64,000 bases of DNA from Sipunculus nudus (taxonomy: Eukaryota; Annelida; Sipuncula; Golfingiida; Sipunculidae). Position 1 is the first letter of the stretch, and each line of letters starts with the position of its first letter. The stretch is from positions 46,135,327 through 46,199,326 of the forward strand of contig CM049308.1 in NCBI GenBank assembly GCA_026874595.1, read 5' to 3'. Under the pieces are notes generated by a model. That model saw only the letters and a list, made by a program, of their open reading frames with translations. It did not search any database and was not told where the DNA came from. Of the stretch, positions 42,484 to 64,000 are shown one piece after another. The position numbers and the translations under genes are program-made.

Positions 42484-42853
42484 ACACGGACGCCCCTTCA
42501 TTAGACTACAATATGCCCAAGCAAGCTTAGAAGCTCTCATTGATACTGGGGCGGCTGTTTCGTTGATGCGGCATGACACCTTTATGGAATTAAATAAAAT
42601 AAATAAAAACTTCACCCTCAATGTCCCTCCCCATGGCCTGCAGTCAGTCACAGGTAACAAACTCGTCGTTACTGGCGTAACCTTCATGCAATTCCTGCAT
42701 CCTGACACTGCACTACGCCTCTTTGTGGTACCAGATTTTCCACATGACATTATTTTAGGGTGTGATGTCCTGAATAGGGGACATGCTACACTTGACCTTA
42801 AACAAAATATATTAACATGGTACAAACGCATGTTCAAGGTCAAACACGAATAA
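42461..42853 (+). pseudogene. Protease (element D)
   Basis: A retropepsin with active site ALIDTGAAVSLM (near 42538-42570) and the second motif DIILGCDVL (near 42750-42775), normal spacing of about 70 residues. The frame opens without an ATG and overlaps the end of gag, so expression by frameshifting from gag is plausible. Domain complete by eye; the following pol is broken. Confidence 0.85.
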
Positions 42854-42960
42854 ATGGGAACACCATCTAAAATCTTCATCACACGGCCATGTTATGCTGA
42901 TGCAGACCTGGATCATCACTTAGACAGTTCAGTGACGTATTCGCCTCATCTGAGGAAAAA

Positions 42961-43660
42961 ATGTCTATTTCAAGTCTGCCGCCTCTAAAAGTCAGATCAA
43001 ATGGAATCACATCCCTTCCCCCATATAGGGTTCCCCTGGCAAAGAAAACGGTGCGCGAACAAGAAGTACGAAGACTACTTAAAGAAGGAATAATTAGACC
43101 CAGTAGGTCACCCTATAGTAGTACTGTGTCCCTTGTAAACAAACTGGATGATTCGGTGCGACTGGTAGTCGACTACCGGAAGGACATTCTGATAATTCAG
43201 GCAGACAAGTTCCCTCTCCCACGCTTGGCTGACACTTTTGATGACTTACAGGGAGCCAAGGTTTTTCCACCCTCGATTTGAAGTCAGGGTACCATCAATT
43301 AGCTATGCACCCGGACAGCATACCCCGGACAGCAATGGCGACACCTAGTGGACTATATGAGTTTGTCCGATGCCCATTCGGGCTCTCAGTAGCGCCCTCT
43401 GTATTCCAAAGAGCTATAAGCTGGGCCCTTAAAGAGGCTCTGCTAGACAATTGTGCCCGTGTCTTTATAGATGACATTGTTGTTTTTAGTAAAAGCAGAG
43501 AGGAACATGTCCAACACTTGTAAAAGATATTTCGTTGCCTTAAACAATACATCCTTAAACTCAAGGCCTCAAAATGCAATTTTGCAAAACCAGCAGTAAA
43601 ACTGCTAGGCCACATCATATAAGCAGAAGGGAAGCTGCCTGACCCCGAAAAGACTGAAGC
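42961..43660 (+). pseudogene. Reverse transcriptase (element D)
   Basis: 42961-43281 holds the fingers (EGIIRPSRSPYSS, RLVVDYRK, FPLPRLAD). A frameshift near 43270 leads to 43278-43523 with the LDLKSGYHQLAMHP palm motif, CPFGLSVAPSVFQRA and the catalytic FIDDIVVFS, where Phe stands in place of Tyr/Val. In-frame TAA stops at 43521 and about 43619 interrupt the thumb. The protease lies ~110 bp upstream. Confidence 0.88.
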
Positions 43661-43670
43661 CATAAGAAAC

Positions 43671-44461
43671 ATGGGTGCACTCAAAAATGTTAGGGGTGTC
43701 CGCAGTCTGCTAAGCAGCTGTGGGTTTTACAGGCAATTTGTAAAAAACTATGCCGAAATTGCAGCCCCGCTGTTGGCACTGACAAAGAAACATGCTAAGT
43801 TTCACTTGGGACTAAAGCAAAAAATGAAAGACCTGCTAGTTTTACCTCAGCTAATGGCCTACCCAGACCCTGCAAAGCCATATCACCTATACACCGAGGC
43901 TTCAAATGTAGCAGTAGGTGCTGTCCTAGTCCAACTAGACGAGAATAACACAAAGAGAGTTATTGAGTATGTGTCACACACACTTAACCCAGCCCAGAGT
44001 AATTACTCAACCATAGAGCGTGAAGGTCTAGCTGTCATGGTGGCACTGACAAAGCTTAGGCATTACCTGCTTGGTAGCGAGTTCACATTCTATACTGGCC
44101 ACAGACCTTTACAATGTTTGTTTACCTCCAAAATAAACAACACAAGGGTACAGCGCTGGGCACTTACACTGCAGAGTTCAACCCGAAAATTGTGTATAAG
44201 AAAGGCTCCTTGAACATAAAGGCAGATATGTTATCAAGATTGCAAAATTCAAAGCAGATACCACCAGTGCCGGAGCCACCAGTCATCGCTTGTGTCTTCC
44301 CAGGAGCAGTAGATTTGGTGGACCTGGAGGAGGATAGTGAAGCTGAGGATTTAATTCCAGTTACAGCACGTAATGTTTATGATGACATAGACCTTGACGC
44401 CATTGTTGAAGCCCAAACACTACATTTCCCACTCCTGAAAAAAACAAGCTCAAAGGGGTGA
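43671..44461 (+). pseudogene. RNase H and connection (element D)
   Basis: 43671-44213 has the SSCGFYRQFVKNYAEIAAPL link and RNase H. Two catalytic positions look altered: YTEAS for the usual YTDAS, and FYTGHRPL for TDHKPL. The conserved Glu in STIEREGLAVMVAL remains. A frame change near 44150 leads to 44114-44461, with IVYKKGSLNIKADMLSRL, the usual end of RNase H, and an acidic linker. Confidence 0.85.
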
Positions 44462-44530
44462 CCCATATCTCACACTGATTGATGGAGCCCTCTATAACTT
44501 ACGAATGCCCCACAAGAGGGCGCCACAGTT

Positions 44531-45618
44531 ATGCCACCACCCTACCCAGGAGAAAGTAATAAAAAATGCGCACCTTCAATTAGGTCATCTAGGGATGATC
44601 AAAACCACGATAGAGTAAATGAGGCTTACATGTGTCCTGAATTAAAAAAAAAGGTTCAACGCGTCATTCATAACTGTCCAAACTGTGCCTTACAAAAAGT
44701 ACCTAAAGACAAAGTAGCTATTCAGAAAATGCCCGTTCCCACACAATGCTTCCAGTTTATCTCATGTGACCTTATAGGCCCATTTATTGTAAGTGTGAAT
44801 GGCAATAGATATGTTCTTACAGTCATGGAACACCTCAGTTCATTCTTAGACGTCTTCCCCATCCCAGATAAAATATGCAAATCTGTATGGACAGCTCTGC
44901 ACCAGCAATACCTTGCTCGCTACGGCACACCTAAAACCATCCTTACAGATAATGGCCTGGACTGGAATTTAATGCCAGAGCATGGGAACAATATCTTAAT
45001 GAATTGGGCATCGAGCACAGAAGATCCACTGCTTATCACCCACAATCAAATGGAAAAATTGAGAGAGTCAATCGGACAGTAAAGGAACTCCTGTCCAGGA
45101 TACTTGCAAATAACCCTGAACAATAGGAATCTGCCCTCAGTGATGTACAATTGGCTCACAACAGTTCCCATAATGAAGCTACAAGTAATAGCCCATACTT
45201 TGTGGTATTTGGGAGACATCCAAATGCTCCATTACGCCACATCAATCCAAATGTTGCTTACACATTAACTGACAGAATACAGAGGATGCACAGCATCTGG
45301 CTTGAGACTCAAGCCCACATTCAAGCTAGCCGCATACCAGACAGACTGAGGTCTGAACAGAAAGCTTCTGCACCAGAAATGGCAGACAGTACCCCAGTTA
45401 TACTAAAAGCAGAGAACCCTCTTACTTTTAGTGCTAAATGTGACCCCAACTGGGTGATCACACAGCAGCGAAACACTACCTGTCACATCAAGAATCAACA
45501 AACTGGTGCAACAAAGAAAGTGCATCGCTCAAAAATTGCACATGCTCCAATCAATGCTGACTGGACCATGATCAACACAAAAAGGCCATCCCACAAACAT
45601 CACATTCGCAAAGATTAA
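44531..45618 (+). pseudogene. Integrase (element D)
   Basis: 44531-45082 carries the second half of the zinc region (NCPNCALQKV) and the core with Asp in FISCDLIGPF, VFPIPDK, and Asp in TILTDNGLDW. The Glu region (MEKLRES) follows after a frame change. A TAG near 45124 separates it from 45151-45618, which has the SHNEATSNSPYFVVFG segment and a basic C-terminal domain. Near the start, the HH part of the zinc region is degraded. Confidence 0.85.
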
Positions 45619-45652
45619 AAAAATCCCTGTTCTGACCCAGCAAACAGACAGA

Positions 45653-46123
45653 TTGCAAAGAAAAGGCAGACTTTCCGCTAAGCGCCCTGGTAACATACGT
45701 TCAACTAATCCTTTCACCTGGAATGGTGAAACACCGAACTGTTACGAATGTGCACGAGCCGGTCATGTCGCGGATGACTGCGACGTTAGATTATACAGGG
45801 TTCAACAGGGAGATTACTCAGGCATTCCCCCAAAATCTCTAAATAGAATTCGGGCCCGGCTGAATAGGTCTAGCAAAGGTAAATCTCCCCTAGATAAACT
45901 GTGCCCATCAAGGAATAAAAAAAGCCCTACACACATCAATGATGAACCTGTAGCAGGCCCATCACAGGCTTATATTCATAAGCCCACAGTTCTTAGACGT
46001 AGTAGCAGGAATACTAGAAAACTAAACTACACACGCCTTCATGAACAAGGCTATGAACATGACTACAAGAAAACCTTACCTATCAAATCTTACATATTTT
46101 CAGATTGTGGGAGACACTGTTAA
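45653..46123 (+). CDS. Extra CCHC zinc-knuckle ORF between integrase and env (element D)
   Basis: A 156-codon ORF, 35 bp after the integrase stop, encodes a second CCHC zinc knuckle (CYECARAGHVADDC, 45740-45781), distinct from that in gag. Around it are many Arg/Lys, Ser and Pro residues, and an SSRNTRKLNYTR stretch near the end. The start could be earlier in the same frame or spliced. Gypsy elements usually have no nucleocapsid-type knuckle here, so it may be a separate accessory RNA- or DNA-binding protein, or a C-terminal extension of pol. It overlaps the first frame of env by a few tens of bases. Confidence 0.55.
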   Translation: MQRKGRLSAKRPGNIRSTNPFTWNGETPNCYECARAGHVADDCDVRLYRVQQGDYSGIPPKSLNRIRARLNRSSKGKSPLDKLCPSRNKKSPTHINDEPVAGPSQAYIHKPTVLRRSSRNTRKLNYTRLHEQGYEHDYKKTLPIKSYIFSDCGRHC

Positions 46124-46157
46124 CAAAAAGAAGGTCAATATTAAATACGCATCAAAC

Positions 46158-47935
46158 ATGGCACCCCCTGTCCCCGTGTTGGTTTGGCTGTGTCTTCTGT
46201 GCTACTCCCAAGCTGCACATTCAGGTAATGTCTCAACACTTTTCAACTTTACACCCATAAGACATGGTATTGTTGTCCATGAACAAGGGGAATGTTTCCA
46301 TAAGAAAGGTTCATGGTCACTGTTGGTTTTTTCTCCGCATCGAACCCTACATAGCAACGTCTTGTAAACTCTGTTGACGTTTAATGCTTCCAACCAACGG
46401 GCTAAAACATATCACCGTTCATGTCCTCTCTGGACACGGAAAATCAATAGGCTAATAAAGTATCTGCAAAACCATGACGCCTCACATAGAGAAAAACGAG
46501 GGCTGTTAGATTTTGTGGGGAATTCTCAAAATCCCTATTTGGAATAGCAACACAAAAAGATTTGGAAACTTTCAGAAAGGCATTTAAAAAATTGGCTAAG
46601 TCACAAGAAGACACTATCAGTATCTCTTAGAAAATGGTCACAGCAGCTAATGAGATAACAGTAGTCGCAAATGAGCATTCAAACCAACTTACCCTACTTA
46701 ACAGTACTTTAAATCTCTGGAAAAATACATTAGAATATAACTTAAGGACATTGGCTGGCACTACAAAATTATTACAACATGCTCGGGAAATAGACTTACA
46801 CATTGATTACATGGAGGATATTTTCCAAGAATACCGGCTAGCATGTGAAGTATATAAACTAAAAAGTGCATCTGTTATGCACGGGTATATCTCTCCCGAT
46901 GTTCTCCCCATGAAATACTTAGAACCAGCCCGCAGCAAGATTTCAGCTCTTGGGTTTGGGATACCCCCACCAGGGTGGATATATAAATATGTCAAGACTC
47001 ACCTTGTATTTGCGTTAAATCTAACTTTAAAATATGCTATCAAAATTCATGTTTTCGAGAAAAACCCATACTTATGCTATAACCTCCACTCATGGCCTTT
47101 ACCTATCAAGCCAAATTTTGCTGTCACCTTTAAGATTGTGACCTCAGTCCCAATAAACATGCAGCAACAAATCTTATTCATTCCAAGAAACTGCTCAGGG
47201 TCTAGCCCTTTTCTCTGTAAGGGTACCCCGGTACTCTCAGAATCCCACTACAGGTGTGAAAAGGCAATAATCCATGGCAACCAGGCACTCAGGAAACACT
47301 GCCTGTTCAATGGGTACATTTTAATATTTCTCAGGTTTTCCGGCCATCCCCTCTACACAGTGTTCTTAGCTTTGCCGGAAAACCTTTATCACTGCACTGT
47401 ATGCACGAGCGGCCCTCAAAAGTGGCCCTGCAACCGATAGTTTATTCTATATTCCTTCACCATACATGCTTCTTATTTTACCCTTCATGGCACATTCAAG
47501 GCTTGCTAACAGAAGCTTCGATGATCGATCTTGCCAGTGCTCTCTTTCAATGTCAACCCCCATAAGAAATACAGATGTAATAACATTGAAACACCTGGCT
47601 GCCATCCCAAGCTGGCACAGCTTCAAACATTTATCCCTCATTCCACCTATGTAATCAACGAGTCTCGCATTATTTGACTTCCAGACCCATCTGACTGGTT
47701 TTCCTGGATTTCCATTATGCTCCTTATGATAGCAGGGGCTGTAGGCCTTATCATTCTTTACAAATTTAAACACATACTCCCCACATGCAGCCCAGAGGCC
47801 TGTAGCAAGCAACAACAAGACAATTCAGACAGTATTCTAGATTCCAAGCCACATCAGGACCTTCAGCCACCCCAGTCAGGGAATTTGAACCCAACGTACA
47901 CAACAGCCAGAAACTATGGACGCTTTTCCTGAATA
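46158..47935 (+). pseudogene. Envelope-like glycoprotein (element D), broken
   Basis: Third gene after pol, as in errantiviruses. From the ATG at 46158 there is a signal peptide (residues ~1-22, hydrophobic Val/Leu/Cys core). This frame stops at 46365-46367. In another frame a basic REKR cleavage-like site at 46489-46500 is followed by a hydrophobic Gly-rich stretch. The largest fragment, 46634-47440, has a heptad-like N-terminal region, several Cys and Asn-X-Ser/Thr sites. The membrane anchor and tail are at about 47711-47932. At least three frame breaks and stops (one TGA right before the anchor) make it non-functional. Confidence 0.75.
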
Positions 47936-48064
47936 CTTTTTCCAAAGTTAGTTAAGGCTTATGGCGCCACGGAATGTACTGAAAATATAAGCTTAACATC
48001 CTATGGATCTAAGGTGCACTAAAGGACTGTAAGCACAAACTCTAACGGCAAATAACCGCTTTTC

Positions 48065-48112
<48 letters not shown>

Positions 48113-48134
48113 AGGTATAGGTGTGTGTTGTATA

Positions 48135-48167
<33 letters not shown>

Positions 48168-49816
48168 ATGCGTATATCTATATGTGTATATAAATATATA
48201 TACTTGATTTATCACTGTGCATGTTGTATACCATGATTTTATGTCACTTATATATTATTAATTATCAATTAAAGGTTACCTCCCTAAACTCCCACAACAC
48301 TTATCAGACTGCTACTCCCTTTTTTCCTACTAGTACTGTGTAGGGAGAGAACACTCCCTGCCCGCTGTTGAAGCACTGGAAAAACCTACCTCCCCCTCCT
48401 CACTTGGGAGTTTGGGTTGGGTAGCTTGCAGCCTTTACACAGACTATGGGGCCCTGTAAAAAAACAACTCCAGATGGTGATGTACTAGGACTGTGACCAG
48501 AAAAAATTGTAGCATCCCACTCTACATGATGCTTAACCTTTGCTCTTACTGACCTCCTGTTGACCAGGGGCGAGGCATCCTGATGACTGACAGTCACCAG
48601 TTATGCCCTGACCAATCACCAGGCAGTGGGTACTTTACCCTGTCTCCCGCAGATAACATACAACTAGGCATCACTGACTGATTCGCTCTCTTTAGACCTG
48701 AGCATCAAGAAGAGTCGGTTCGTGCAGTGCACACCATCTTCGCTCGACCGGTGCAGTCCTAGGTATGTGTACTTATTATCTTAGATAACTTAGCAGTCAC
48801 CATAAAGCAGTCTTGATAATGTGTGAGTGTAGTCTCTGTATATATAACCAATACAAACTTGTTGTGGTTCTTTCAAATTTCCCTAAGTGGTATCACCCAA
48901 TACATCTACATTCCCAAATTACAGTATTTTAAGAAAATACTACAGTATAACAACAGTACAACAGCAAATCAATACAATTACACAGTATAATAAATAAAGT
49001 GTACAGTACCTGCATACCACCACTGTCACGGCGACAAAAATTCCTTAAAAATGTATAATCAAGATGAACAGTTCACATAAATCTTCCCAGAGAATAACAG
49101 TCCAGTTCAATCACAAAATCAATTTGTTGTACTCCAAAAGTGAAGTTCTGATAGTGATCCCAAAGGCAAACCGAAGACTAATTAAAATCCGTTACAAATT
49201 CAAAGAAGTTCTGTAACTGCTGCAGTTATCGGAAAGGCCCACAACTGACTCGCACTCTTCCGTGTACGCTGGAACATTTCTCTTTCAGGCTTCAAAATAG
49301 GTCTGATAGGATGAAAAAAGGTTGCGCCGGCTGAAAATGGCATACGGACCCTATGCATGGAGTCCCATTGGGTCCGCTTCTGCTGCTTATGAGGAATGCA
49401 TATTTCTATTTCTTTCTTTAGAAACAGTTTCCTTGCAACGTACATTTAATTAATCTTTCATGTTTTCCTCATATCAATCTATTCTTTATACGTCCAACGA
49501 TAGAATCCATGCTGTCAAATATCATCGAAAACCTGAATGCTCCTGCGTCTCATTCCGGTTCGCAATGTAAACATCATCACTGACCAGGTCTTCAAGGTAA
49601 ACAAGTACTGGGGTATGAATTTCTTGCCATGAGCAGAGCGCCACAAAATAAATGTAAACAACATTTGTACATGTCTTATTGAGACAGACACCAATTGAAA
49701 ACCTATATTTTCTTTTAACTTTTAGAATAAAAAAAAGAGCCAACATTACATATCTCCTTTATATATCTCCCCAACCCCGGTGAAAAGCCCGGTATAATGG
49801 GTTTATCATGCAGCTA

Positions 49817-49873
<57 letters not shown>

Positions 49874-51269
49874 AATTAATGGTATAGCCGTGTTAGTCTG
49901 TAGTCCAAGTATAGGTAGATAGAAAGAGTGACGCCTTTCAGATAGACTTATAACACGTTTAAGTAAATAAACAAGTTGGTCTAAAAGGCGTCGATCTTAT
50001 ATATATAATATATAAATATATTAACATGGCGAAAAGCAGGATAAGACAAACCATGAATTAAGTAATTGTTAACAATATAGAAGACTATGAACAACACATG
50101 CTTCGAGTCACTTGTAGGACTGATACAATAAAATGCAATTTTGTCCTGTAAATATATAGTAAAAGTTAAAAGAAAATGTTTAACTATGTGTTCATTGTAA
50201 GAGTTTAAAATGCAATCAAAAGGTGACCGTTGCAACATAAAAGGGCATAACTTTAAAATACATCAACATGAACAAATTGCATTAATAAAAGTATATATTA
50301 CTGTACATTACAATGTTTTTTTTAGCAATGACGAAGAGGAAGAAAATGAGCCATGGTTTGTGAAGAAAGGACCAATATTGACAAAGTTATGATCGAAATA
50401 AGATTTTGACGTGTTTGATGACCTATACCTTAAAATTCGACCTATTAAAAATACACATACAGCTTCATGAAATCGTCCCGATATACGATATTGGTTAATA
50501 CATAGTAATACCTGCAAAACTTTGGCATGTAGAATGCTAAATATAAGACAAAAGAACAATTAGCCAGAAGGCGAAATTGAGGACAACTGTGGCTGTAGAA
50601 TGCTAATTGATCGCTAATTGAGATGATCGTAAACATTATTTGATATTTGTGATCAAAACATACACGGTTTTAATATATCTGAAAACAAAATAAGTAATAT
50701 GTTTTAGGGAGACAAGCCCTATGTATACATATAATTCAGAATAATCTTTAAAAACCTGCAAATAATAATAAGATCATACATTCTTCTCATGTTTAACAAA
50801 CGATTCATGTTTATCTCATCAGGAAGACCTAAAAAGTGTTACGTATAAAATGCGATCTCTCGAAACGAAAATACTCACATTCAAAGAAATAATGATATTC
50901 ATCTCCAATGACATCCAGACTACATATCTCGCATTATCTTTCATCATAAAAATCCCTGGGAGACGTCCTGTCGTCACTGTTAAATGGTTGTTTCCAGCTC
51001 TAAATTCGCACACTAATTGACAGAATCCAGTCGGCAAAATAGTTAAGTGTGGTTAAAAAATATTTCTTTTAAAAATATGTATGCTCTACCTATTTGTGCC
51101 TCTGAGACAAGTTTATGCCATCTTTGTTGATACTGGTCGTGGAGTTTTAGTCGAAAACACAGGTATATACCACCTAGGGTTCATAACTTGCTGGCAAGAC
51201 CATATGTTAAATAACCCCATAAATGCGGGGAACTGTCGGTTTTTCAGACTAATCTATGGGATTCTTTGC

Positions 51270-52520
51270 TACCATTGCGCATGGTCCAGCACAACGCGGC
51301 ACATCTTGCTACTTTTATGTGCTGAACGGCTATTCAGCGAAAAGTGCGCGGTAGCAAATAGCTGTCGCACAGTAGCATATGCTACCCTTGCGCATAGCTT
51401 GCCACATCGCGCAATTAGCTGCCACTGGACTTGCTACCATAAGACAGAGACCGGCTCATACGCATAAAGTGCGCGGTAGCAAATCATAACTGCGCGGTAG
51501 CAAATGGCTGTCTTTGCTACCCATGTGGCCTATGCACAGACCGCCTCATATGTGCAAAGTACGCGGTAGCAAATCAGACCTGCGCGCTAGCAGGTGGCTG
51601 TCATTGCTATCATGGCGGCTATGGTCGCAAAATCTGCTTCTATTGACGTAGTACAAGTCTTTGCTGCCAGAGGTCGCTCGGACAGGACCACTCAAAGCGA
51701 CATGCGCGGTAGCAATTAATTGTCGCAAAGTAGCAAACAGATCTGCTCAGTAGCAAAGGCCATGGGTCATATAAAGCTGCAATCGTAATGCGCAATGTGC
51801 GCGGCAAACAGACCTGCGCGGTAGCAAGTTGCTGTCAGCTCCTATGCATGGGGACTATGTCTTTGCGATCGCAAAATCTGCTACTGTTAACGTAGTGCAA
51901 GTCTTTGCTGTCAGAGGTCGCTCGGACACGACAACTCAAAGCAATATGCGCGGTAGCAATTAACTGTTGCAAAGAGCAAACAGATCTGCGCGGTAGCAAA
52001 TGCTACGGGTCATATTCAGCTGCGATCGCAATGCGCAATGAGCGCGGTCGCCAGTTGCTGTTACCTGCTACCTTGGGGACTATGAATTTGCATTCGCAAA
52101 ATCTGCTATTGTTGACGTAGTGCAATTCTTTGCTGCCAGAGGTCGCTCGATAAGACCTCACAGACCAATATGCGCCGTAGCAATTAACTGTCGCAAAGCA
52201 GCAAACAGTCTAGATTTGCGCGGTAGCAAGTGCCATGGACCATATTATGCTGCGATTGCAATGCGCAATGTGCGCGGTAGCAAATCAGATCTTCGCGGTA
52301 TCGAGAACCCCGTGGAGGCTATCTATTGCGATCGAAACTTTTACTGGTATCGTTTCAGTGCAAGTCTCTGTAGCCATAGGTCGCCCGGATAGGCCTGCGA
52401 CAAACTTTGCATTAGGCGTGTAAGGAATTAGTAGTCGAAGAGTAACACATTGACCTGCGCAGTAGCAGGTGTAATGGGCCATATTAACTAACGACAGCAA
52501 AGCGCGGTAGCAAAACACAC
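51270..52520. repeat. ~235-bp tandem repeat, second copy
   Basis: Same array as 3880-5160 with scattered substitutions and small indels (for example a GGGGACTAT insertion near 51851 relative to 4460). No coding function. Confidence 0.8.
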
Positions 52521-53262
52521 CTGCGAGATAGCAAGTGCTTGTGACTTACTAATCATAGCCATAATTCTGGAATAATATATGCTTCATTTCATTCAGGTTT
52601 TTTTTTCAAATAATCACTAATGATATATTAACATTTAATTTAAAAACACTTGTTCCAAACCTTTGTCGCCCTTCTCTTACAAAATCTGCATGGTTTGAAC
52701 ATATTTATATAAACAGGATTACAAAGTAGCCATTGGCTAATAGACAGGCTATCCTGTAAACATTTAAAACACATGTTAACAATGACGGTAACAACATATA
52801 TACATTTAAGCATAAGTTGACATTTAAGCATAAGGTGATATATAAGCACGTAATTCAATATATACAACATAATATAGGCGACAAATAATCTTACAGAATG
52901 ACCTAACATAAACAGACGTGAAAACAATATATGCAGTATAACCGTTAACTATATACTGCATTAGTAGCGGGTTCATATGGAGCCCCTAAAGTGACAAACG
53001 TAATATTTTTTTCTGGGTAAATATCGCGTTCCCTCGCGACCATTTTGTAAAATGTGAGAAGTATTTGGAAATCTCTCCTCAAGGAGAGTTGAGGCCAATG
53101 CAGCTCATCGTACATTTTGTTTGAGCTTGTTGTGATAAAAACGCCGGTGCTGATACTTTCTGGATGCTTTCTAATTTTTTACTTTGTTTCGCTGTGCAGC
53201 TGTTAAATACTTGTGACCTGTATTCTAAAACCGGAAGAACCATTGATTTGTACACCCGTAAG

Positions 53263-54107
53263 CAGGGGCGTAGCTAGGATTGAGGGAGGGAAGGGGGCCA
53301 TGATCAATGGCGGATCCCGAAATTCGAAAACGGGGGGTGGGGGGGGGGGGTAGGGGCGCTAATATGCATGTAATGGTACTATGAAAACTGTTATATATAC
53401 AAGTATATATATGTATATGTATATGTAAAATATATTTTTTTGTTTATTTTCAATTATGAACCATCCTTTCATTATGGTTAGTTACAGGTACATGGGGAGG
53501 GTATGTGAAGGGGTATCCCCCTCCCATATTGGGAAATTTTTTAATATACAATGTTAAAAGGACATTTTGAAGCAATTTTTAAAATGTCTTTGCGTTATGT
53601 AGTCAAACTGTAGAGAAGTTCAATATTTATTATTTATATTTCTTCAAAATTAGGATATAATATTTCAGTCGTTTTCAAACAAGTCAATGGCACAAAGGCG
53701 CAATAACTGATAAGTTGAAATCTTATGGTAAACTTTGCATTTTACCGGGTTCCGTGGTCTCGACAGCACACAGGACTCCTCAGAGCACAGATCGCGAGGT
53801 CGAGTACCGGTATCACCAGAGGAGCCGTAAGATTGTTCCCGGTCGACCCCAACCAGGGCCTGGTGCTCGATCGATCTGCAGTTGTTCTGCAGCTGTTCAT
53901 AAATATCCTAATACTCAACTAACAAATTTGTAAGAAATAAACTGCAGATAACTTAAATAAAGTCTAATTCCGTATTAATAATACGAAATATGAAAAACGA
54001 AAATTAATCACGAAAATAGGGAATTAGATAAAATGAGAGATATTGCAGCTCAACGGGGGCAGCGCGCCGAAGGCGCCCCCTCTGGATCCTCGATTGATAG
54101 CAAAGGC

Positions 54108-54172
<65 letters not shown>

Positions 54173-54279
54173 TATTAGATTAAGTGAAATTCAGAAAAGG
54201 ACGGCGAGTACTGGATGCGACCGGGGGTGGCATGGCCCCCTGCGCCCCCACCCCCCCCCCCCCCTTGGCTACGCCCCTG
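53263..54279. mobile_element. Terminal-inverted-repeat transposon, second copy
   Basis: Same element as 5859-6906, with CAGGGGCGTAGC and GCTACGCCCCTG ends and CGTAAG on both sides (53257-53262 and 54280-54285). It is about 1017 bp; the internal ATT repeat is shorter and the (AT)n tract longer than in copy 1. Confidence 0.8.
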
Positions 54280-54519
54280 CGTAAGTATTTTCATAGACAT
54301 CTTGAAAATAATATATAATAAAATGGTAATTTTTTTTGGAAGCTGTAAGACATAAATTATTTATATGTTCGGATCATGACAAGTTTTTAGAAAGTCTCCC
54401 CGACGTGTTTTTCGCTGGTAAGTCGGTCAGTTTGACGTCATCAAAATGCAGCAGTGGATGAGTATTGTACGATCTTTTACTTGAAAAAACATATAACTTT
54501 AGTTTTTGTTAAACCATTT

Positions 54520-55420
54520 ACTGGAGTTTTTCATGTCCCAAGGCTTAGGGTCACCCGTATCCAGGATATACCATATATCAATAGTGACAGACACTTACTG
54601 GAGTTTACACTAACTGGTATTTTTCAGGTCTTGGATATATCATATATTTATAGTGACAAATACTTACTGCAGTATTTCATGTCCAAAGGGTTAAGGTAAC
54701 TTGTATTATGGATATAGCATATATCGATAGTGACAACACTTACCGGAGTATTTCATGTCCTAAGGGTTAGGGTAACCCGTTTCCCAGATATAGCATATAT
54801 TAATAGTTACCATCACTTACCTCTAGTCTTTCATGCTCGAACGGTAAAGGTAGCCCGTATCCCGGATAAAGCATATGTTTAAAGTGACTAACACTTACTG
54901 GAGTATTTCATGCTCGAAGAGTAAAGGTAACCCGTATCCTGGATATAGCATATATTAATAATAGTAAACACTTACTGAAGAATTTCATGTCTAAGTGTTA
55001 AGGTATTCGTATACCGAACATAGCAAATACTAATAGTGACAAACACTTACAGATGTATTTCATGCGCGATGTATTTCATGCCCGAGGGGATACAGTAACC
55101 CGTATCCTCGATATAGCATATAGTAATAGTGACAAACATTTACTGAAGTATTTCATGTCGGAAGGCTTAGGGTCGTCCGTATCCAGGATATACCATATAT
55201 TAATAGTGAAAACTATTATTGGAGTATTTCATGCCCGAAGGGTTACGGTAACCCGTGTCCCGGATATACAATATATTAATATTGACAAATATTTATTGGA
55301 GTATTTCATGTCAGAAGGTTTAGGGAACTCGTTTCCGTGATATACCATATATTAATAGTGACAAATATTTATTGGAGTATTTCATGTCAGAAGGTTTAGG
55401 GAACTCGTATCCGTGATACC
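54520..55420. repeat. 76-bp minisatellite, short allele-like copy
   Basis: About 12 diverged units matching 7140-7990 in order, then only about two core-type units before the end of the duplication. The ORFs 54454-54699 and 55053-55340 are repeat translations. Confidence 0.9.
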
Positions 55421-55839: not shown

Positions 55840-56350
55840 TTAAGGGTCCCATAATAAAGGGCTCATGTGCGTCTGTATCTAAGGGGCTTTATTATACTCT
55901 GGCATTGTCCAATAATTAGTGACTTAATCTTTTAACTAATAAGATTGTCATACTTAATAATCAACATACTTAGGGTCCAAGAATTAAGGGCTTTTGTATG
56001 TCTGCATGTATAAAAGAGGCTTTATTATACCATGGTATTGTCTAATAATTAGGGGCTTAATCTAATGACAAGTAGGACTATCATACATACTTAGGGTCCA
56101 AGAATTAAGGGATTTTGTATGTCTGCATGTTTAAAGGGGCTTTATTATACTGTGGTATTGTCTAATAATTATGGGCTGAATCTAATAACAAGTAGGACCA
56201 TCAAACTGGATAATCAACATACACGGGGTCCAAGAATTAAGGGCCTTTGTGCATTTGTATCTAAAGGGCTTTATTATACCCTGGCACTGTCCAATAATTA
56301 GGGGCTTAATCTAATATAAAGTAAGACAATCATACTGAATGATCAACATA
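55840..56350. repeat. ~121-132-bp tandem repeat, four units
   Basis: The landmark AGGGTCCAAGAATTAAGGG (or variant) occurs at about 55842, 55972, 56093 and 56224. Each unit continues with GGCTTTATTATAC and GTCTAATAATTAGGGGCTTAATCT-type sequence. Units are roughly 80-90% alike by eye. Confidence 0.8.
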
Positions 56351-58847: not shown

Positions 58848-59178
58848 CTATGTTATGAAATTCTTAAGGAGGAATTTGTTCGCATGTCTACAGGCGGTGA
58901 CAAGTTCGTTCCGTTTATTCAGGGTGGCCAAATGGGGGTTCCAAATGATATAGTATTTTTTCCATAAGCATAGGTTACATCTGTTGGTAGCGCTGTTATA
59001 AGCCTTTGCCTGTTTCAGTATTTTCCATGTGATACTGTAGTCTACACCTTTGTCTTTCAACTGCCATATATATTTGCTAAGTTCTGTGTTAAATTTCTTA
59101 GATTTGTTCATGAAGGATGATTTGTGATTTGCATAGCGTGACTTGAATGAATTTTCTGTTAATCCTAAGTAGTTATAT
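58848..59178 (-). pseudogene. GIY-YIG endonuclease end of a Penelope-like element
   Basis: It encodes YLGLTENSFKSRYANHKSSF (59163-59104 region), then TELSKYIWQLKDKG, the RCNLCL Cys pair and a C-terminal LNKRNELVTACRHANKFLL stretch. This succession is the typical end of Penelope-like element proteins, where a GIY-YIG endonuclease follows the RT. The ATG at 59111 is internal; the frame continues upstream to about 59178, with a TAA in it. Normal stop at 58848. Confidence 0.85.
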
Positions 59179-59783
59179 TATAGTTGAATGAGGAGCAAAA
59201 AAATGCAGGGAAACCGACCAAGGTCAAGGGCAAGGTCACAGAGTACGAACAGGTGGTAAGTCACCAGAGGGTATATAGAGGGAGCCTGCCCAAGGTCAAG
59301 GTCGGGGGTCATAGGGTACGAACAGGTGGTGAGTCACGAGGGGGTTATAAAGAGAGAGCCCGCCCAAGGTCAAGGCCGTGCCCTAGATGGGATTGCATCA
59401 CGCAGTGTGGTCCGTATATGGGTCACACTGTCCAAGCAGGCCCTGAGGTGTGTGTGTGTGTGTGTCGAGGGTGATGTGCGTGTGTGGAAGGTGGAATTAA
59501 AATGATGGGTAGAGTTAGAAAAGCATGGGATCATGAAAAGGCTTGCTTACCTAGTGACAGAGATATGTGTTAATGATTCCAGATGGCAAAGCTATTAAGG
59601 TCAGACACTGTCTATGTAAGCAAAGTCGATATATGGGTCGGGGTGAGAAACTGGGACGGCATTGCTGATGGAGATTCAAGCGGGATGCTTGGGTGAGTGG
59701 TAAACTCATTAACTCCCAGCGATTTGTTTTTGTGGCTTGGAGTCCAAAGTCCAAAGTCAGGACCGGTTGTGTGTAGTAAATAA

Positions 59784-59839
<56 letters not shown>

Positions 59840-60003
59840 CAGTATTTAGCTGAGGGAAGCTTCATGGTGGCATCCGTGTGTGAACCGAGTAATGGACTTA
59901 CCTTTACCACTATTGGTGATCGTGACATGCATCTGGTCATTTCTGCTACCGTGACGTTGGTTGTGTGAATTGCTTGAGCATACGATCAACGTAAAATAAC
60001 AAT
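59179..60003. other. Leader region of the virus-like cluster, no ORF
   Basis: Between the Penelope remnant and the first cluster gene. It holds the 72-74-bp promoter-like repeats (59218-59366), a (GT)n tract (59448-59464), a possible 5' splice site (GGGTGAGTGG near 59690) and an (AT)n tract at about 59788-59834. That tract ends in TATAAAACAC, which could serve as a TATA box for the gene at 60004, with a TTCATGG near 59861 at about +30. No coding sequence is accepted. Confidence 0.5.
59218..59366 (+). promoter_or_regulatory. Tandem 72-74-bp promoter-like repeats
   Basis: Two units (59218-59289, 59290-59363) and the start of a third. Each unit has CCAAGGTCAAG (AAGGTCA, a nuclear-receptor half-site), GTACGAACAGGTGGT, then TAAGTCACC or TGAGTCACG (the latter containing the AP-1 site TGAGTCA), and ends in a TATA element (TATATAG 59272-59278; TATAAAG 59346-59352). 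The TATA elements are 74 bp apart. Repeated enhancer-TATA units on the same strand as the downstream genes suggest a viral-type control region. Confidence 0.5.
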
Positions 60004-60654
60004 ATGTGTTTTGAAGAGGACGAGGTGTACCGGCCCTGTTCTGGGCGGAACCCTTTAGTTCCACTGAACTTGGCTCGGTGTGAACAATGTGAGTTACCGT
60101 TGTATGTTACTTGTCGGGGCCATTGTTGCGACTGTACGTGTCGTTCTGTGGACCTGGGTCCCATCAAGAACCCCTCGTGTGAAAAGTGCGGGTCACCCAA
60201 AGTGGCGCGATGTAAATGTCATTGTTGCACTTGCGCTCGTAAGAGTTATGATTTTGTGGGAAAATTCGAGGCTGACGAGGCGGCCTGGGCTGCTGGTGTT
60301 ATAACAGAGAGGGAACTCGACTGTCGCCCAGAAGGTCTGAGTCAGCTGGATGAAGATTTACTGTTGATGACCCCACCCAGCAGCCCGAAACGTCAGTCTC
60401 CTGCTACTACCCTTCCGCTACCCTTACGGATTCGTTTACCCTCACCTGTGAAGGAAGTCGGTGAGCTGACTCCGACACCATCGCCACCATTACCACCGAC
60501 GAACCCCGTGCCCGTGGTTGAAAGGTCACGGCGCAGGCGTAAACGAGGGGGTCGGAATCACAGGAGGCAGCGCGAGAACGCTATAAAAGCGATACGTGAA
60601 ACTGCCGGTGCAGCATATCATCAGCGGTTATGCTTCCGGCAACACCTAACATGA
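60004..60654 (+). CDS. Cys/His-rich two-repeat protein with basic C-terminus (virus-like cluster)
   Basis: A 216-aa protein from the ATG at 60004. Residues 26-46 and 59-77 are two similar putative metal-binding repeats: Cys-x2-Cys-x7-Cys followed by a HisCysCys-x-Cys cluster (Cys26, 29, 37, 41, 42, 44, 46 with His40; Cys59, 62, 70, 72, 74, 75, 77 with His73). The middle is acidic (residues ~85-120), then Ser/Pro-rich with SSPKRQSP-type sites, and near residue 172 an Arg/Lys-rich segment (SRRRRKRGGRNHRRQR) that should act as a nuclear signal or bind nucleic acid. No family is recognised. A regulatory or genome-binding protein is an inference. Its last 25 bases overlap the next gene. Confidence 0.75.
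   Translation: MCFEEDEVYRPCSGRNPLVPLNLARCEQCELPLYVTCRGHCCDCTCRSVDLGPIKNPSCEKCGSPKVARCKCHCCTCARKSYDFVGKFEADEAAWAAGVITERELDCRPEGLSQLDEDLLLMTPPSSPKRQSPATTLPLPLRIRLPSPVKEVGELTPTPSPPLPPTNPVPVVERSRRRRKRGGRNHRRQRENAIKAIRETAGAAYHQRLCFRQHLT
60582..60588 (+). promoter_or_regulatory. Possible internal TATA box for the gene at 60630
   Basis: TATAAAA lies within the end of the preceding coding sequence, about 30-37 bases upstream of a TCATCAG stretch (60618-60624) that could be an initiator, and 48 bases before the ATG at 60630. The next in-frame ATG is at 60651. As it is embedded in coding sequence, chance cannot be excluded. Confidence 0.3.
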
Positions 60655-61076
60655 ATCAGTATAACCACGAAATGCTTCCCCTACCCCCTCCGCCTACGTC
60701 TATACCTATGGAGAACATGAGAAGGGGTGGTTATTCGAAAGGGTTCAACATGGGTCCTACATTTTGTGTCGCTGGTAGCGACGCCGGGATGAAGAACCAC
60801 GACGAGTCACGGCAGGTGCGCACTGACTGCGGTGTTTTCACGTGCAGGTGTTGTCAAGGGAAAGGTGTGGTAGCTAGGAAGCCTGGCCCCCCACCAGCCG
60901 TGCAGAACGCGAACCGTGAGTACACGGGTAGTGTGTCCACGTTCGAGGCCAGGCCAGGTGACCGACCTGCTACACCCGCCGCGCTTGAGCTGTTCAGTGG
61001 TTTAGGCAGTGGAATCAACACAGGTGGGGAAATGTTTAAGCGTGATGATGTGGGCAAGCACACGCATCTGTTTTGA
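60630..61076 (+). CDS. Small Pro/Gly-rich protein with a CxCC motif (virus-like cluster)
   Basis: A 148-aa ORF in a different frame from the preceding gene, overlapping its end by 25 bases. The N-terminus is rich in Pro, Met and Asn (LPLPPPPTSIP), the centre has DCGVFTCRCCQGKGV (Cys near residues 67, 71, 73, 74) and the C-terminus has ALELFSGLGSGINTGG. No family is recognised. The Cys cluster echoes that of the upstream protein but has too few ligands for a complete repeat. The overlap and same strand suggest a real gene. It ends 7 bases before the TATA box of the next. Confidence 0.6.
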   Translation: MLPATPNMNQYNHEMLPLPPPPTSIPMENMRRGGYSKGFNMGPTFCVAGSDAGMKNHDESRQVRTDCGVFTCRCCQGKGVVARKPGPPPAVQNANREYTGSVSTFEARPGDRPATPAALELFSGLGSGINTGGEMFKRDDVGKHTHLF

Positions 61077-61083
61077 GAGCGGG

Positions 61084-61118
61084 TATATAAAGAGACGCTG
61101 CGTGTGCGTCGCTTCAGT
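61084..61118 (+). promoter_or_regulatory. TATA box plus initiator
   Basis: TATATAA at 61084-61090 is followed 32 bases later by TTCAGTT (A at 61116), a good match to an arthropod/invertebrate-type TCAGT initiator. The predicted start lies 32 bases ahead of the ATG at 61148. This is the clearest core promoter of the window. Confidence 0.6.
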
Positions 61119-61147
61119 TGTATCGTTTTGTGACCAGTGCTACAGAC

Positions 61148-61369
61148 ATGTCCAGTACCTTCCTGGCCGTTGCAGACGGATTGATATTTTTGGCCGTGGC
61201 GCCTCTCTACCTCCCTTTGTTGGGGTGTCTGATCCTTAAAGATAAGATTCAGAGCGGTAGTTTCACGTGGGATAAAGTGAAACGAAAGCTGGGATTTTTC
61301 CGCTGTTGCTGTCGTGTTCCCCAGGAAGATGTGAGAGATGCAGGTGGCAGGGAACCGGGAGCATTATAA
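61148..61369 (+). CDS. Small single-span membrane protein with Cys triplet (virus-like cluster)
   Basis: 73 aa from the ATG at 61148, the first ATG after the predicted transcription start (the frame is open upstream only from a TTG). Residues ~5-31 form a hydrophobic membrane segment (LAVADGLIFLAVAPLYLPLLG), followed by a basic amphipathic stretch (KDKIQSG..WDKVKRKLGFF) and Cys-Cys-Cys near residue 52-54, a likely palmitoylation site. Type III or tail-side topology cannot be told. Its own promoter upstream and poly(A) signal at 61496 make it a separate transcription unit. No family recognised. Confidence 0.65.
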   Translation: MSSTFLAVADGLIFLAVAPLYLPLLGCLILKDKIQSGSFTWDKVKRKLGFFRCCCRVPQEDVRDAGGREPGAL

Positions 61370-61393
61370 AAAAACTGTGTTGGCAATTGACAA

Positions 61394-61411
61394 GCGTGTA
61401 TTCAAACACGC
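61394..61411 (+). other. Short hairpin in the 3' untranslated region
   Basis: GCGTGT-ATTCAA-ACACGC is a perfect 6-bp stem with a 6-nt loop, between the stop at 61369 and the poly(A) signal. It may stabilise or mark the 3' end of the transcript; chance is possible. Confidence 0.35.
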
Positions 61412-61495
61412 ACTGTTTGGCTATTGTTGTGGCTATTTTGTTTTAATTATACCATCTCCCCTCCACATAATGAATACTCTGCCTGTTGATTATAC

Positions 61496-61501
61496 AATAA
61501 A
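61496..61501 (+). terminator. Poly(A) signal AATAAA with GT-rich downstream element
   Basis: AATAAA is followed about 20-45 bases later by TTGTTTTGTCG and TTTTTGGTGTGT, the usual GT-rich element. It would end the transcript of the membrane-protein gene at 61148. The GT-rich run also overlaps the start of the next ORF and ends in a splice-acceptor-like TGTGTAG. Confidence 0.55.
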
Positions 61502-61563
61502 AGGGTAAAATGTTATTTTCTTGTTTTGTCGTGTTTTTGGTGTGTAGCAATTGCAAAGTGCAC

Positions 61564-61770
61564 ATGGCGAAACGCAAGAGAAAGGCAAGCAAGGGTGTGA
61601 GAAAGCAAACCAAAGGTTTGAGAAAGACGCAAAAGGGAGGTATATTACCCTTTTTACCCTTACTGTTAGCTGCCGCGCCTGCCATCGGGAAAGCTGTCGC
61701 GTTGGGGGCTGCCGGTGGGGCCACGTCTTACGGCGACACCAAAGCTTTACAGGCTGCGGTGGGGCGGTAG
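61564..61770 (+). CDS. Basic, hydrophobic pX-like core/membrane-active protein (virus-like cluster)
   Basis: 68 aa from the ATG at 61564 (good context CACATGG); the frame also opens at the ATG at 61510, which would add 18 hydrophobic residues. Residues 1-24 are very basic (KRKRKASKG, KKTKGLRKTQK type), then a Gly-Gly and a hydrophobic stretch (ILPFLPLLLAAAPAIG, residues 27-42), then a Gly/Ala-rich segment. A basic head, GG, and hydrophobic Pro-containing tail is the layout of adenovirus pX (mu precursor) and the pX-like proteins of adintoviruses and Polinton-like viruses, which sit in the virion core. Assignment is by pattern only. A Gly-Gly-Xaa processing site cannot be confirmed. Confidence 0.55.
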   Translation: MAKRKRKASKGVRKQTKGLRKTQKGGILPFLPLLLAAAPAIGKAVALGAAGGATSYGDTKALQAAVGR

Positions 61771-61828
61771 ACGGACAATTTGAGTTCCCAAATGTATATA
61801 TTCTCATTAGATACTCTCTAAAGCAAAA

Positions 61829-62077
61829 ATGTTGTCACGTGAATCTGAAACAGAAACGACCAGTCAGGCCAGCTTTGCACAGCAGATGAACCGGCGTTCG
61901 TTTGCGATGTTTTGCTGTACAATTTTCGTGATCGCCTTTGTCGTGGTAGCGTCAGTGGTGAACTTGTCTTTAAACGGTATTGAGGGCGAAGGTCGCGATA
62001 TCTGGATATCGTTGCTGTTTACGTGTTTGGGCGTATTGTTCCCGACACCTAAGATCCGTAAAGACCGAAAGCCGTAA
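61829..62077 (+). CDS. Two-span membrane protein, stop overlapping next start (virus-like cluster)
   Basis: 82 aa from the ATG at 61829. Residues 1-24 are polar; residues 27-48 (FCCTIFVIAFVVVASVV) and 58-72 (IWISLLFTCLGVLFP) are membrane spans with a short acidic loop between, and the tail is basic (PKIRKDRKP). The arrangement ...W-x-x-L-L-x-x-x-L-G-x-x-x-P-x-P-K is one I recall from small proteins beside F54H12.2-like genes in aquatic invertebrates; this is memory, not a search. The stop TAA (62075-62077) shares its final A with the ATG of the next gene (TAATG), allowing termination-reinitiation. Confidence 0.65.
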   Translation: MLSRESETETTSQASFAQQMNRRSFAMFCCTIFVIAFVVVASVVNLSLNGIEGEGRDIWISLLFTCLGVLFPTPKIRKDRKP

Positions 62078-62991
62078 TGCTCTCTGTGGAAGGGGAGGAG
62101 GACGAGCACCTCCTGGTCATGCCTTCTGACGCCGATAAAGAACAGCACCCAAACAACACAGCAGCAGAATTTAAAGTCAGTCTGAGGCAACCCATCCATT
62201 TACATTCGGAGAAAAGATGGGAGATCGCATTGGTGAAACTGTACGTTCCGAGGCAGGTGCCACAGCCTATCATCCCGATAACCTTCGACATCTTTTACCT
62301 CTGGGAACTGCCAGAAGGTGCCCTAACCAGCCCTAAATCGAGCACCCATTCTTTCGAGGTGACAGGACGGCAAAGCATGATCACGGATTTGACGAGGTAT
62401 TTTGACATGGCCGCCAAGTCAGGTCTCCATTCCGATGCCGTCGAATACATGAAGAACAACACCGTTTCTAACGTGCCCCAAGGGTTGAACATGGAGCGCG
62501 TGGGTACAAACCAACTGCGGATCCGATGGGTGTTAGCCGGCAAGTTCGTGGATGTCACATGTTACCGTATCCCGCCCATCATTATTGATTTCGGAGAAGT
62601 GTTCCCGAAGCTGGTGTCTCTGCCACAGAGACGGGTGGAGCTGGCTCAGTTTATGGGCCCCGAGAAATTGTTGACGGGTGGGTCTTCGTATTATTTTAAA
62701 TTACGTATCATAACGGGAGGTGATGTGATAAGTACCTATTTCCAAGCATTCGAGAGTAGGCAAGAGGAGAAGACGTTTTATCTTCCCAAACAAACGACTG
62801 CTGGTTTCGGTGCTATGTTTAACATGATCATGAAAGATGTGTACACCCATCCTGAGAAGTACGGGTTTGCTCCTGTCATGAAAGGGCGTACGGAAGCCCG
62901 TTACACACAGGGTGAAGACTGGGTGCAGATGAGGGTGGGCTGTTCGTTTCAGAAGGTGGGGATTTCAAACATTTCCACTTACCGTCATTAA
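62077..62991 (+). CDS. Candidate virion structural protein, 304 aa (virus-like cluster)
   Basis: A clean 304-aa ORF. Near residues 16-58 it has the pattern PSD...PNNTAAEFKVSL..PI...WEIALVKLYVP: Asn-Asn-Thr (26-28), Phe32, Leu36, Trp48-Glu-Ile-Ala-Leu52. This pattern marks a family of metazoan proteins of mobile-element origin (often annotated F54H12.2-like or beside such genes), to which a jelly-roll-like structural fold has been attributed. The remainder is beta-rich by eye with no long helices or membrane spans. Later segments (FYLPKQTTAGFGAMFNMIM, residues ~252-270) match the usual LP-x-x-x-Y...L...aN region of that family. A capsid, penton or spike role is inference. Translation is probably coupled to the upstream gene through TAATG. 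Confidence 0.65.
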   Translation: MLSVEGEEDEHLLVMPSDADKEQHPNNTAAEFKVSLRQPIHLHSEKRWEIALVKLYVPRQVPQPIIPITFDIFYLWELPEGALTSPKSSTHSFEVTGRQSMITDLTRYFDMAAKSGLHSDAVEYMKNNTVSNVPQGLNMERVGTNQLRIRWVLAGKFVDVTCYRIPPIIIDFGEVFPKLVSLPQRRVELAQFMGPEKLLTGGSSYYFKLRIITGGDVISTYFQAFESRQEEKTFYLPKQTTAGFGAMFNMIMKDVYTHPEKYGFAPVMKGRTEARYTQGEDWVQMRVGCSFQKVGISNISTYRH

Positions 62992-63072
62992 GAGACCACT
63001 TCTTATTCAAGATTGCGATTTATCTTCAGCCACGCCCTGGCTTCAGCGTTAAGGTTGCACCCTGACCCGGGG

Positions 63073-63273
63073 ATGGAAGTGGAATGGGACTTCCGGGAGA
63101 AGCAGTCATTGGCGAAGTCGGCTTGGGACAAGGGCGGTGACAGGATTTACGACGTGCCCCACAGTATTTCCAGTGAATACATTAAGAGGTCAGAGTACTC
63201 TCAGACCAAGTCGAAAGCAAGCAACGGGAATTTAAAATATTTTTTCGACTGGGAGGCGGATTATTTCATATAG
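63073..63273 (+). CDS. Small acidic/aromatic ORF (virus-like cluster)
   Basis: 66 aa from the ATG at 63073; the frame is open further upstream only from a TTG at 63013. It is rich in Trp, Tyr, Asp, Lys and Ser (MEVEWDFREK ... YFFDWEADYF) and has no family I recognise. It lies between two structural-type genes, 81 bases after the former and 18 bases before the latter, on the same strand. A splice-acceptor-like TTTATCTTCAG precedes the extended frame at 63017-63028, so the true 5' end might come from elsewhere. Confidence 0.45.
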   Translation: MEVEWDFREKQSLAKSAWDKGGDRIYDVPHSISSEYIKRSEYSQTKSKASNGNLKYFFDWEADYFI

Positions 63274-63291
63274 ACACACAGGTTAGAGGGG

Positions 63292-64000
63292 ATGGAGCCG
63301 AAGGGCAAGAAAACCACCGACTACATCCGCATGGACGCTGAAAGATATCAGCTCACCGGGACGTTGTTCAGTCGCGATATCCCCAAGTTTGAAACTGACG
63401 ATCAGGTGTGGGTAAAAGTGAAGATGGAGGACACGTTGCAAGAAGGGCACGACGTGATCCGAGCTCTAGAGCGGCGGGACGAGATCCCTTCCTCTGGCGT
63501 GAGTGCTTCTGACGTGGTGGACGTGCCCGTGTTAGTGCCCGAATACCGCCCCTTGACGGCTGGCAAACGGAAACTGGACCAGGTGTCAATCCGGTTGGAG
63601 GATGAGTACGGGAAGAAGTTACGGTTCACTGACGGGGGGTTTTCAGGCGTGAGTTTGCATTTGAAGACGGTCCCTCTCCTGTCCCCAGAGCACATACACC
63701 TTTTAGTACCTTGCGACGTCCTGTACACTTTGCCTCACCTTAAGGACATTTACATCCAGAACAAGTACGTGGCGGGTATTACCAGTTTAAAACTGCCCAG
63801 GACGTACGTGAACGTGAAGGAGAAGGAATATGTCGTCACCGTGAAAAGGAAGAAAGCGGGCGAGGAGGATCAGATCTTGACGGAATATTGGTTGCCAGAA
63901 GGGCAATACCTGAACGAAAGTTTAGTGCAAGCCGTGAGCGTCGCGGTGGACCAGATGGGCGAGGAAGGGTTTTGTACGGGGATGCCATGCACACCCAGGT
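63292..64000 (+). CDS. Large ORF running off the window, candidate structural protein (virus-like cluster)
   Basis: From the ATG at 63292 the frame stays open for 236 codons to the end of the window with no stop, so only its N-terminal part is seen. Context GGGGATGG is good. The sequence is charged and beta-rich: DQVWVKVKMED near residues 40-50, a poly-charged turn, HLKTVPLLS near 125, LVPCDVLYTLPHL near 140, and YWLPEGQYLNESLVQAVS near 205. The last segment again follows the LP-x-G-x-Y-x-x-x-x-L-x-x-A pattern seen in the 62077 protein, suggesting a related fold. Spacing and strand fit an operon-like late cluster. No catalytic motif is visible; capsid or capsid-associated function is inference. 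Confidence 0.7.
   Translation, partial: MEPKGKKTTDYIRMDAERYQLTGTLFSRDIPKFETDDQVWVKVKMEDTLQEGHDVIRALERRDEIPSSGVSASDVVDVPVLVPEYRPLTAGKRKLDQVSIRLEDEYGKKLRFTDGGFSGVSLHLKTVPLLSPEHIHLLVPCDVLYTLPHLKDIYIQNKYVAGITSLKLPRTYVNVKEKEYVVTVKRKKAGEEDQILTEYWLPEGQYLNESLVQAVSVAVDQMGEEGFCTGMPCTPR

Follow-up and report, generated by a model that had tools for sequence, protein, structure and literature searches.

The 64,000-nucleotide stretch of the Sipunculus nudus genome considered here (hereafter the window; C3:46135327-46199326 of a 1.43-Gb assembly in 153 contigs) carries at its right edge a compact cluster of forward-strand open reading frames (ORFs A to H), whose eight proteins gave nothing above the Pfam cut-offs and at best E 0.08 in PHROGs. 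A cluster without any recognisable protein family could be placed by reading further. The next 28.7 kb to the right, taken as three stretches of which the first directly adjoins the window end (L021, L022 and L023), hold, no more than 17.2 kb outside the window, candidates for a family-B DNA polymerase (PolB), an rve integrase, an A32-type packaging ATPase, an adenain-like protease and, with weak support, a double-jelly-roll capsid protein. The initial annotation had suggested a DNA virus or virus-derived element, which these genes bear out. Together they form an element at C3:46194494-46216511, 22,018 bp as preserved and with the cluster as its left part, which we read, with a probability of about 0.96, as an integrated and decayed Maverick/Polinton copy, that is, a linear double-stranded DNA element that copies itself, makes capsids and carries an rve integrase. 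This reading is based on the gene set, the gene order and a terminal repeat with its end motif, together with the inverted ends and 6-bp target duplication of a related insertion on C9. Judged from sequence, the polymerase, integrase, ATPase, protease, ends and target duplication of a Maverick/Polinton are all found, and the capsid folds are putative. The features of the element are collected in Table 1.

Table 1. Features of the element in the window (plain positions) and to its right (L021, L022); lengths in amino acids (aa)
Feature	Position	Strand	Remarks
Element, part within the window	59168..64000	+	extends to C3:46216511 (L022:7511); capsid genes, protease, integrase, ATPase and polymerase lie beyond the window
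Left terminal inverted repeat	59168..59473	+	(AGT)2 motif (AGTAGT) at 59168-59173; homology with C9 copies starts at 59166-59168
73-bp tandem repeat	59214..59375	+	2.2 copies, within terminal repeat; units carry TATA-like box (59269, 59343)
ORF A	60004..60654	+	216 aa; Cys-rich N-terminus, basic C-terminus
ORF B	60630..61076	+	148 aa; overlaps ORF A at 60630-60654
ORF C	61148..61369	+	73 aa; single hydrophobic stretch; TATA-like box at 61081-61096
ORF D	61564..61770	+	68 aa from inner ATG; basic then hydrophobic; pX-like by composition only
ORF E	61829..62077	+	82 aa; membrane protein with long hydrophobic region; matched in 8/8 copies compared
F, first part of F-G-H gene	62077..62991	+	NNT..WEIAL domain; closed by in-frame stop at 62989
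G, middle part of F-G-H gene	63013..63273	+	only TTG start listed; closed by in-frame stop at 63271
H, last part of F-G-H gene	63292..64000 in window	+	runs to L021:506 (C3:46199832)
I	L021:499-1014	+	171 aa; predicted paralogue of F/H domains
J	L021:960-1574	+	
K	L021:1670-2014	+	
Capsid-type gene, copy 1	L021:2097-3507	+	
Capsid-type gene, copy 2	L021:3517-5134	+	tandem with copy 1
Adenain-like protease	L021:4971-5564	+	
Gene of ~296 aa	spans L021/L022 border	-	
rve integrase	L022:399-1265	-	PF00665, E 1.8e-8
A32-type packaging ATPase	L022:2544-3296	-	PF04665, E 2.1e-7
Family-B DNA polymerase	L022:3824-7505	-	PF03175, E 2.1e-9; predicted protein-primed type

Core genes of the element

The Pfam matches of the polymerase, integrase and ATPase all lie above the curated cut-offs, and the polymerase of a related copy on C8, 54% identical to that of the window copy, matches PF03175 at E 6.7e-12, again above the cut-off; a PDB search with the polymerase returned nothing credible. 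When the ATPase alignment was compared with the protein database, 144 relatives were found at E<=1e-3 among 3372 candidates. A protease profile built from four family rows found three PDB sequences at E<=1 (0.038, 0.038 and 0.37). One of them is named adenoviral proteinase; the other two, labelled simply 'Protease', we take to be adenovirus proteases as well. The His, FDP-G, Gln and Cys blocks line up in the alignment with the PDB sequences, and Pfam gave the protease a weak label only, below its cut-off. The capsid-type family matched the Pfam entry 'Double jelly roll-like' (PF21738) in two of eight rows (E 0.017-0.025, below the cut-off), and its profile met nothing credible in PDB. To the right of the protease, the middle part of the element has genes on both strands. 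Beyond it, two small minus-strand genes lie between the integrase and the ATPase. The element is richer in G+C than the window to the left of 59168 (0.498 versus 0.408), as the initial annotation had noted of the cluster.

By inference from Mavericks, replication of such an element would start at the terminal repeats, primed on the polymerase's own N-terminal priming domain, with the protein-primed polymerase copying the element DNA and the rve integrase inserting it. The ATPase would fill capsids built of the double-jelly-roll protein and the protease would mature them, while D and E would act on membranes or in the core, and F-G-H and I would be minor capsid (vertex) proteins.

Terminal repeats, target duplication and damage

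The first ~300 bp of the element recur inverted at the polymerase end of both copies of a closely related insertion at C9:50 Mb, where they are split by 2.3-2.8 kb. That insertion has the (AGT)2 motif or its complement at both ends and is flanked by a perfect 6-bp target duplication. Because the second copy has identical flanks, including the 6-bp duplication, in opposite orientation, the pair (C9:50736000-50795999, L024-L029; about 94-98% identity) most plausibly goes back to a single insertion, duplicated afterwards in inverted orientation. The two copies measure 25,329 and 18,303 bp and have insertions in the right repeat; in the shorter (copy 1), a deletion reaches from the first capsid gene as far as the polymerase. 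Thus the terminal inverted repeats that had been proposed as a check are present, the left one in the window and both ends at C9:50 Mb with Maverick end motifs, and the cluster start given earlier, 59218, falls inside the terminal repeat of an element that begins at 59168. The ~300-bp inverted repeat, the (AGT)2//(ACT)2 ends, the 6-bp target duplication and the length of ~22-25 kb are all common to vertebrate Mavericks, for which PMC8097293 gives (AGT)2//(ACT)2 ends, 6-bp duplications and inverted repeats between 46 and 1447 bp long. A box similar to the TATA-like boxes of the terminal repeat stands ahead of ORF C; the count of these boxes used a pattern derived from the boxes themselves. A single pattern used to look for the box in the other copies proved too strict, as it recovered one of the three window boxes, plus two places elsewhere.

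Homology between the window copy and the C9 copies ends at L022:7511, on the N-terminal side of the polymerase, and a satellite begins at L022:7516. A 129-bp tandem repeat lies to the left of the element (window 56000-56350), and the satellite is a related, same-orientation array (L022:7516-7798) that abuts the broken right end; these arrays may be connected with the truncation of that end.

The window copy is a relic, no longer able to replicate or make capsids, since its polymerase is truncated and frameshifted, both capsid copies and the F-G-H gene are interrupted, and a right terminal repeat was not found. Capsid copy 1 contains two in-frame stops and a frame change, and capsid copy 2 a frame change. 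In the polymerase the N-terminal part is absent, and a change of frame near L022:6800 breaks the remainder. The earlier description of all ORFs of the cluster as undamaged therefore fails at F-G-H, which two in-frame stops cut, and the broken capsid and polymerase genes to the right add to this. A relative at C9:69.1 Mb keeps the N-terminal part of the polymerase as a 565-aa ORF (L043:1415-3112), in which finger-like and OTU-like Cys motifs can be seen by eye. According to PMC11071308, this part of the polymerase in Polintons contains the priming domain together with a protease that is thought to release it.

Related copies in the genome

Searching the genome with F gave 21 match rows, corresponding to the window and 13 other places, with the C9 pair counted as one. 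Seven of these 13 places were read, over 20 to 60 kb each, and the gene order of the element was the same at all seven insertion sites. As far as read, the copies at C2, C8, C9:69 Mb, C11 and C13 run from E or the late genes up to the ATPase or polymerase; C10 has just the late half, and the C9:50 Mb insertion consists of the near copies. These two are 59-94% identical to the window copy, mostly 81-94% (the second capsid copy aside), and in the other lineages identity is 25-84% where a gene matched. ORFs C, D and G were unmatched in several of the more distant copies. Of the copies compared, the window element and C2 alone have a second capsid copy; the second-capsid query matches, in the C9 pair, only the relative of the first copy, at 42-47%.

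The membrane protein and the basic/hydrophobic protein of the initial annotation are both present, as E and as D read from its inner ATG. In C9 copy 2, ORF A shows 85% identity over 214 aa and ORF B 93%; in C2 the figures are 46% over 123 aa for ORF A and 52% over 82 aa for ORF B. ORF C reaches 86-89% in the C9 copies, 50% in C2 and 38% in C13, with no match in the remaining four copies compared, and ORF D was matched in the C9 copies and C2 and unmatched in the other five copies compared. ORF E has in addition a relative in a second Maverick family of the same genome (E 1.8e-21).

Between lineages, silent sites are saturated (pS, differences per silent site, 0.65-1.01), while non-silent differences amount to 0.09-0.51 per site. 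This contrast shows that the family has long been under purifying selection. Between the window copy and the C9 pair, silent substitutions per site (dS) are 0.05-0.18, but 0.22-0.29 for PRO and B, and the ratio of non-silent to silent change (dN/dS) ranges from 0.15 to 1.01; 16 gene pieces were run and 15 counted, MCP2b being excluded since it meets a paralogue. Integrase identity to the window element is 84% in C2, C8, C9:69 Mb and C11 and 57% in C13 (L038, C13:44.67 Mb), and in some other genes C13 is nearer than C8 (MCP1b, for example, 63% versus 45%). As the integrase identities are out of step with those of other genes, they suggest an exchange of the integrase gene in the C13 lineage, a candidate event that the figures fit without proving.

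The host genome gave at least 128 ATPase match rows, rows not being equal to elements: about eight loci belong to the window family, thirteen rows at 39-43%, with near-equal scores, to the second family, and dozens lie at ~35%. Besides the window family there are thus at least two groups of Maverick-type ATPases, spread over many contigs and with many near-equal scores, which suggests, rather than shows, nearly identical copies and recent activity. The second family (L016, L018) has in common with the window element an E-like membrane protein, an integrase of similar type and a long frame that matches F and H, and its ATPase, assigned by position near L016 and L018, is ~41-43% identical. Its integrase end, a gene of 304-331 aa, the E-like gene (seen in L018) and the long gene are all on one strand. 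With the window element, an animal genome already rich in Mavericks gains a lineage that comprises several subfamilies. All mollusc genomes analysed in PMC10294476 are reported to contain Mavericks, which are likewise reported for the hard clam (PMC8905726).

The F-G-H gene and its paralogue

The least ordinary part of the element is a long two-domain protein, predicted from F, G and H, and its short paralogue I. F, G and H share one reading frame in which the in-frame stops at 62989 and 63271 are the sole separators. Because only these stops divide them, and because relatives and the second family keep parts of the sequence in one open frame, the three are a single gene of ~809 codons, in which G is no separate gene. 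Of the eight same-strand ORFs first described, the positions and the overlaps at 60630-60654 and 62077 are real, and their length exceeds chance (forward ORFs of at least 70 aa between 59995 and 64000 total 1145 aa, whereas 300 dinucleotide-preserving shuffles averaged 175 aa and reached 500 at most), but they are not eight genes, and what had been taken for a separate 304-aa protein is the first part of F-G-H. Neither stop occurs in the two C9 copies, which carry other damage. G and H lie in one 525-aa frame in C2, and the C-terminus of F with the G and H sequence lies in one 349- or 550-aa frame in C11 and C13. The whole gene is open in none of the copies read in the window element's family.

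In the second Maverick family, the F match lies inside open frames of 732, 787 and 528 aa, and within the loci read the long frame covers 558 aa in L018 and 595 aa in L016. F matches near the start of this frame (E 6e-10 and 4e-11 in L018 and L016), and the match to H begins at residue 368 or 397 (E 5e-13 and 3e-9). At E<=0.1 neither G nor the final part of H had a match in L016 and L018, where the loci are cut and the frame is incomplete. Three apparent genes are in this way joined into one long predicted protein, whose second-family relatives are open as far as read.

The second-family proteins contain a second copy of their N-terminal WEVAL block (BLASTP E 2e-8 for L018 and 1e-7 for L016), which in L018 lies at roughly residues 467-509. 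The local scores of this repeat were 74 against 23.1 +/- 4.6 and 75 against 23.3 +/- 4.3 for shuffled sequence, and none of 500 shuffles reached the score in either case. Within the window element's family, I matches the N-terminus of F (hhalign probability 96.9, E 1.7e-10) and the first part of H (probabilities 83.6 and 85.4, E 8e-6 and 6e-6), and its probability against the second part of H is 18.6. The first and second parts of H match each other weakly (11.9), and a direct comparison of F with H gave nothing, as would be expected if the two were different parts of one domain. In shuffle tests of this family, the score of the start of F against the second part of H was reached by 67 of 500 shuffles, and that of the end of the first part of H against the end of H by none of 500. 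The predicted domain duplication is strong in the second family and weak in the window element's own, and we read F-G-H as two putative tandem domains and I as a shortened single one.

The order of the F-G-H/I candidate, J, K, capsid and protease genes parallels the published order 'minor capsid, PW, major capsid, protease' (PMC8097293). On account of this position, F-G-H and I are the leading candidates for a minor capsid (vertex) protein. We regard as doubtful the more specific proposal of a vertex or minor-capsid system shared by at least two Maverick families of one animal, in which a chain of ~700-800 aa with two tandem vertex-type domains is accompanied by a short third paralogue; if it were true, particles would have fused double-domain vertex proteins replacing the usual single jelly-roll penton. 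The F-G-H proteins had no Pfam family above cut-off and no credible PDB relative by profile, and F had no relative in phage records. One of nine proteins scanned, from the second family, weakly matches DUF5901 (E 6.6e-4, below cut-off), which we leave as a lead. Neither a mention of DUF5901 nor an account of the window element's family or of a fused vertex protein was found in the literature searched (titles and abstract starts, partial coverage).

Comparison with known elements and alternative readings

Against vertebrate Mavericks (PMC8097293), the element has in common PolB, the rve integrase, the packaging ATPase, the adenain-like protease and a capsid-type gene beside the protease. The integrase here stands in the polymerase-strand block, whereas vertebrate Mavericks list it in the capsid block; the window element also differs in its two tandem capsid-type copies (found in C2 as well), in its long F-G-H gene, and in having no jelly-roll minor capsid protein detectable by sequence. 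Duplicated capsid genes are not new in themselves, as duplicate hexons and duplicate pentons are reported in a few adintovirus genomes (PMC11071296).

Several results weigh against a Maverick/Polinton identity. The window copy has one end only: neither L022 nor L023 shows a right terminal repeat and its own target duplication is not visible, and the C9:69 Mb copy shows no inverted repeat within the stretches read. Weak profile hits and position make the capsid-type gene a weakly supported candidate for a double-jelly-roll capsid protein. F, H, the ATPase and the capsid had no relative in any of the viral contigs, and neither F nor the alignment of H had one in the protein database. The structure predictions that had been suggested for F and H lent no support to a viral fold, since the single-sequence models, with predicted local distance difference test (pLDDT) values of 45.8 for F and 31.5 for the window part of H, are too poor to back one; a structure search with the F model gave nothing at E<=0.001 (best E 0.032), a result that is not meaningful at such a pLDDT.

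Other identities for the element fit these observations less well. An 'undescribed adintovirus/Polinton-related element' had been proposed, of which the Maverick/Polinton part holds; the element belongs to a known kind, and at most the family itself is undescribed. An adintovirus in the strict sense, with an OTU-bearing PolB, a BLASTp-recognisable hexon and an rve integrase with chromodomain, is not established and appears unlikely to us. Adintoviruses (PMC11071296) do share the animal association, PolB and rve integrase, and the polymerase ORF at C9:69.1 Mb provides an OTU-like motif, by eye and in that one relative only. That same N-terminal PolB ORF, however, has no Pfam match of any kind at E<=10, and the integrase of the window copy shows only rve at E<=10, with no chromodomain. 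A polinton-like virus or virophage would share the ATPase, protease and capsid-type genes, but the presence of PolB and an rve integrase, mostly missing from polinton-like viruses (PMC11071308), together with the Maverick end motif and target duplication, makes this very improbable. That several ORFs are open might point to a cluster of host genes or to a module that the animal has domesticated and retained; given transposon-type ends with a target duplication in the family, the same gene order at seven further sites, and broken capsid and polymerase genes, we give this almost no credence.

Surroundings of the element

A minus-strand ORF at window 58851-59177, which by eye resembles the GIY-YIG-type end of a host retroelement, crosses the left end of the Maverick/Polinton element; because it reaches across that end, the element may have landed in such a retroelement. 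Farther left, nearly 8 kb are repeated at window 1-8052 and 47637-55412 (96-99% identity, about 47.4 kb apart), flanking the mid-window retroelements, and positions 7137-11420 and 54511-55418 have in common a long array of diverged tandem repeats in ~76-bp steps. Between the flanking repeats, a 2,969-bp stretch with retroelement-like ORFs occurs twice in tandem at 21690-27626 with 100% identity and is either a very recent duplication or an assembly artefact, and a single retroelement lies in pieces at 41164-47437, with gag-, pol- and possibly envelope-like ORFs as labelled by eye.

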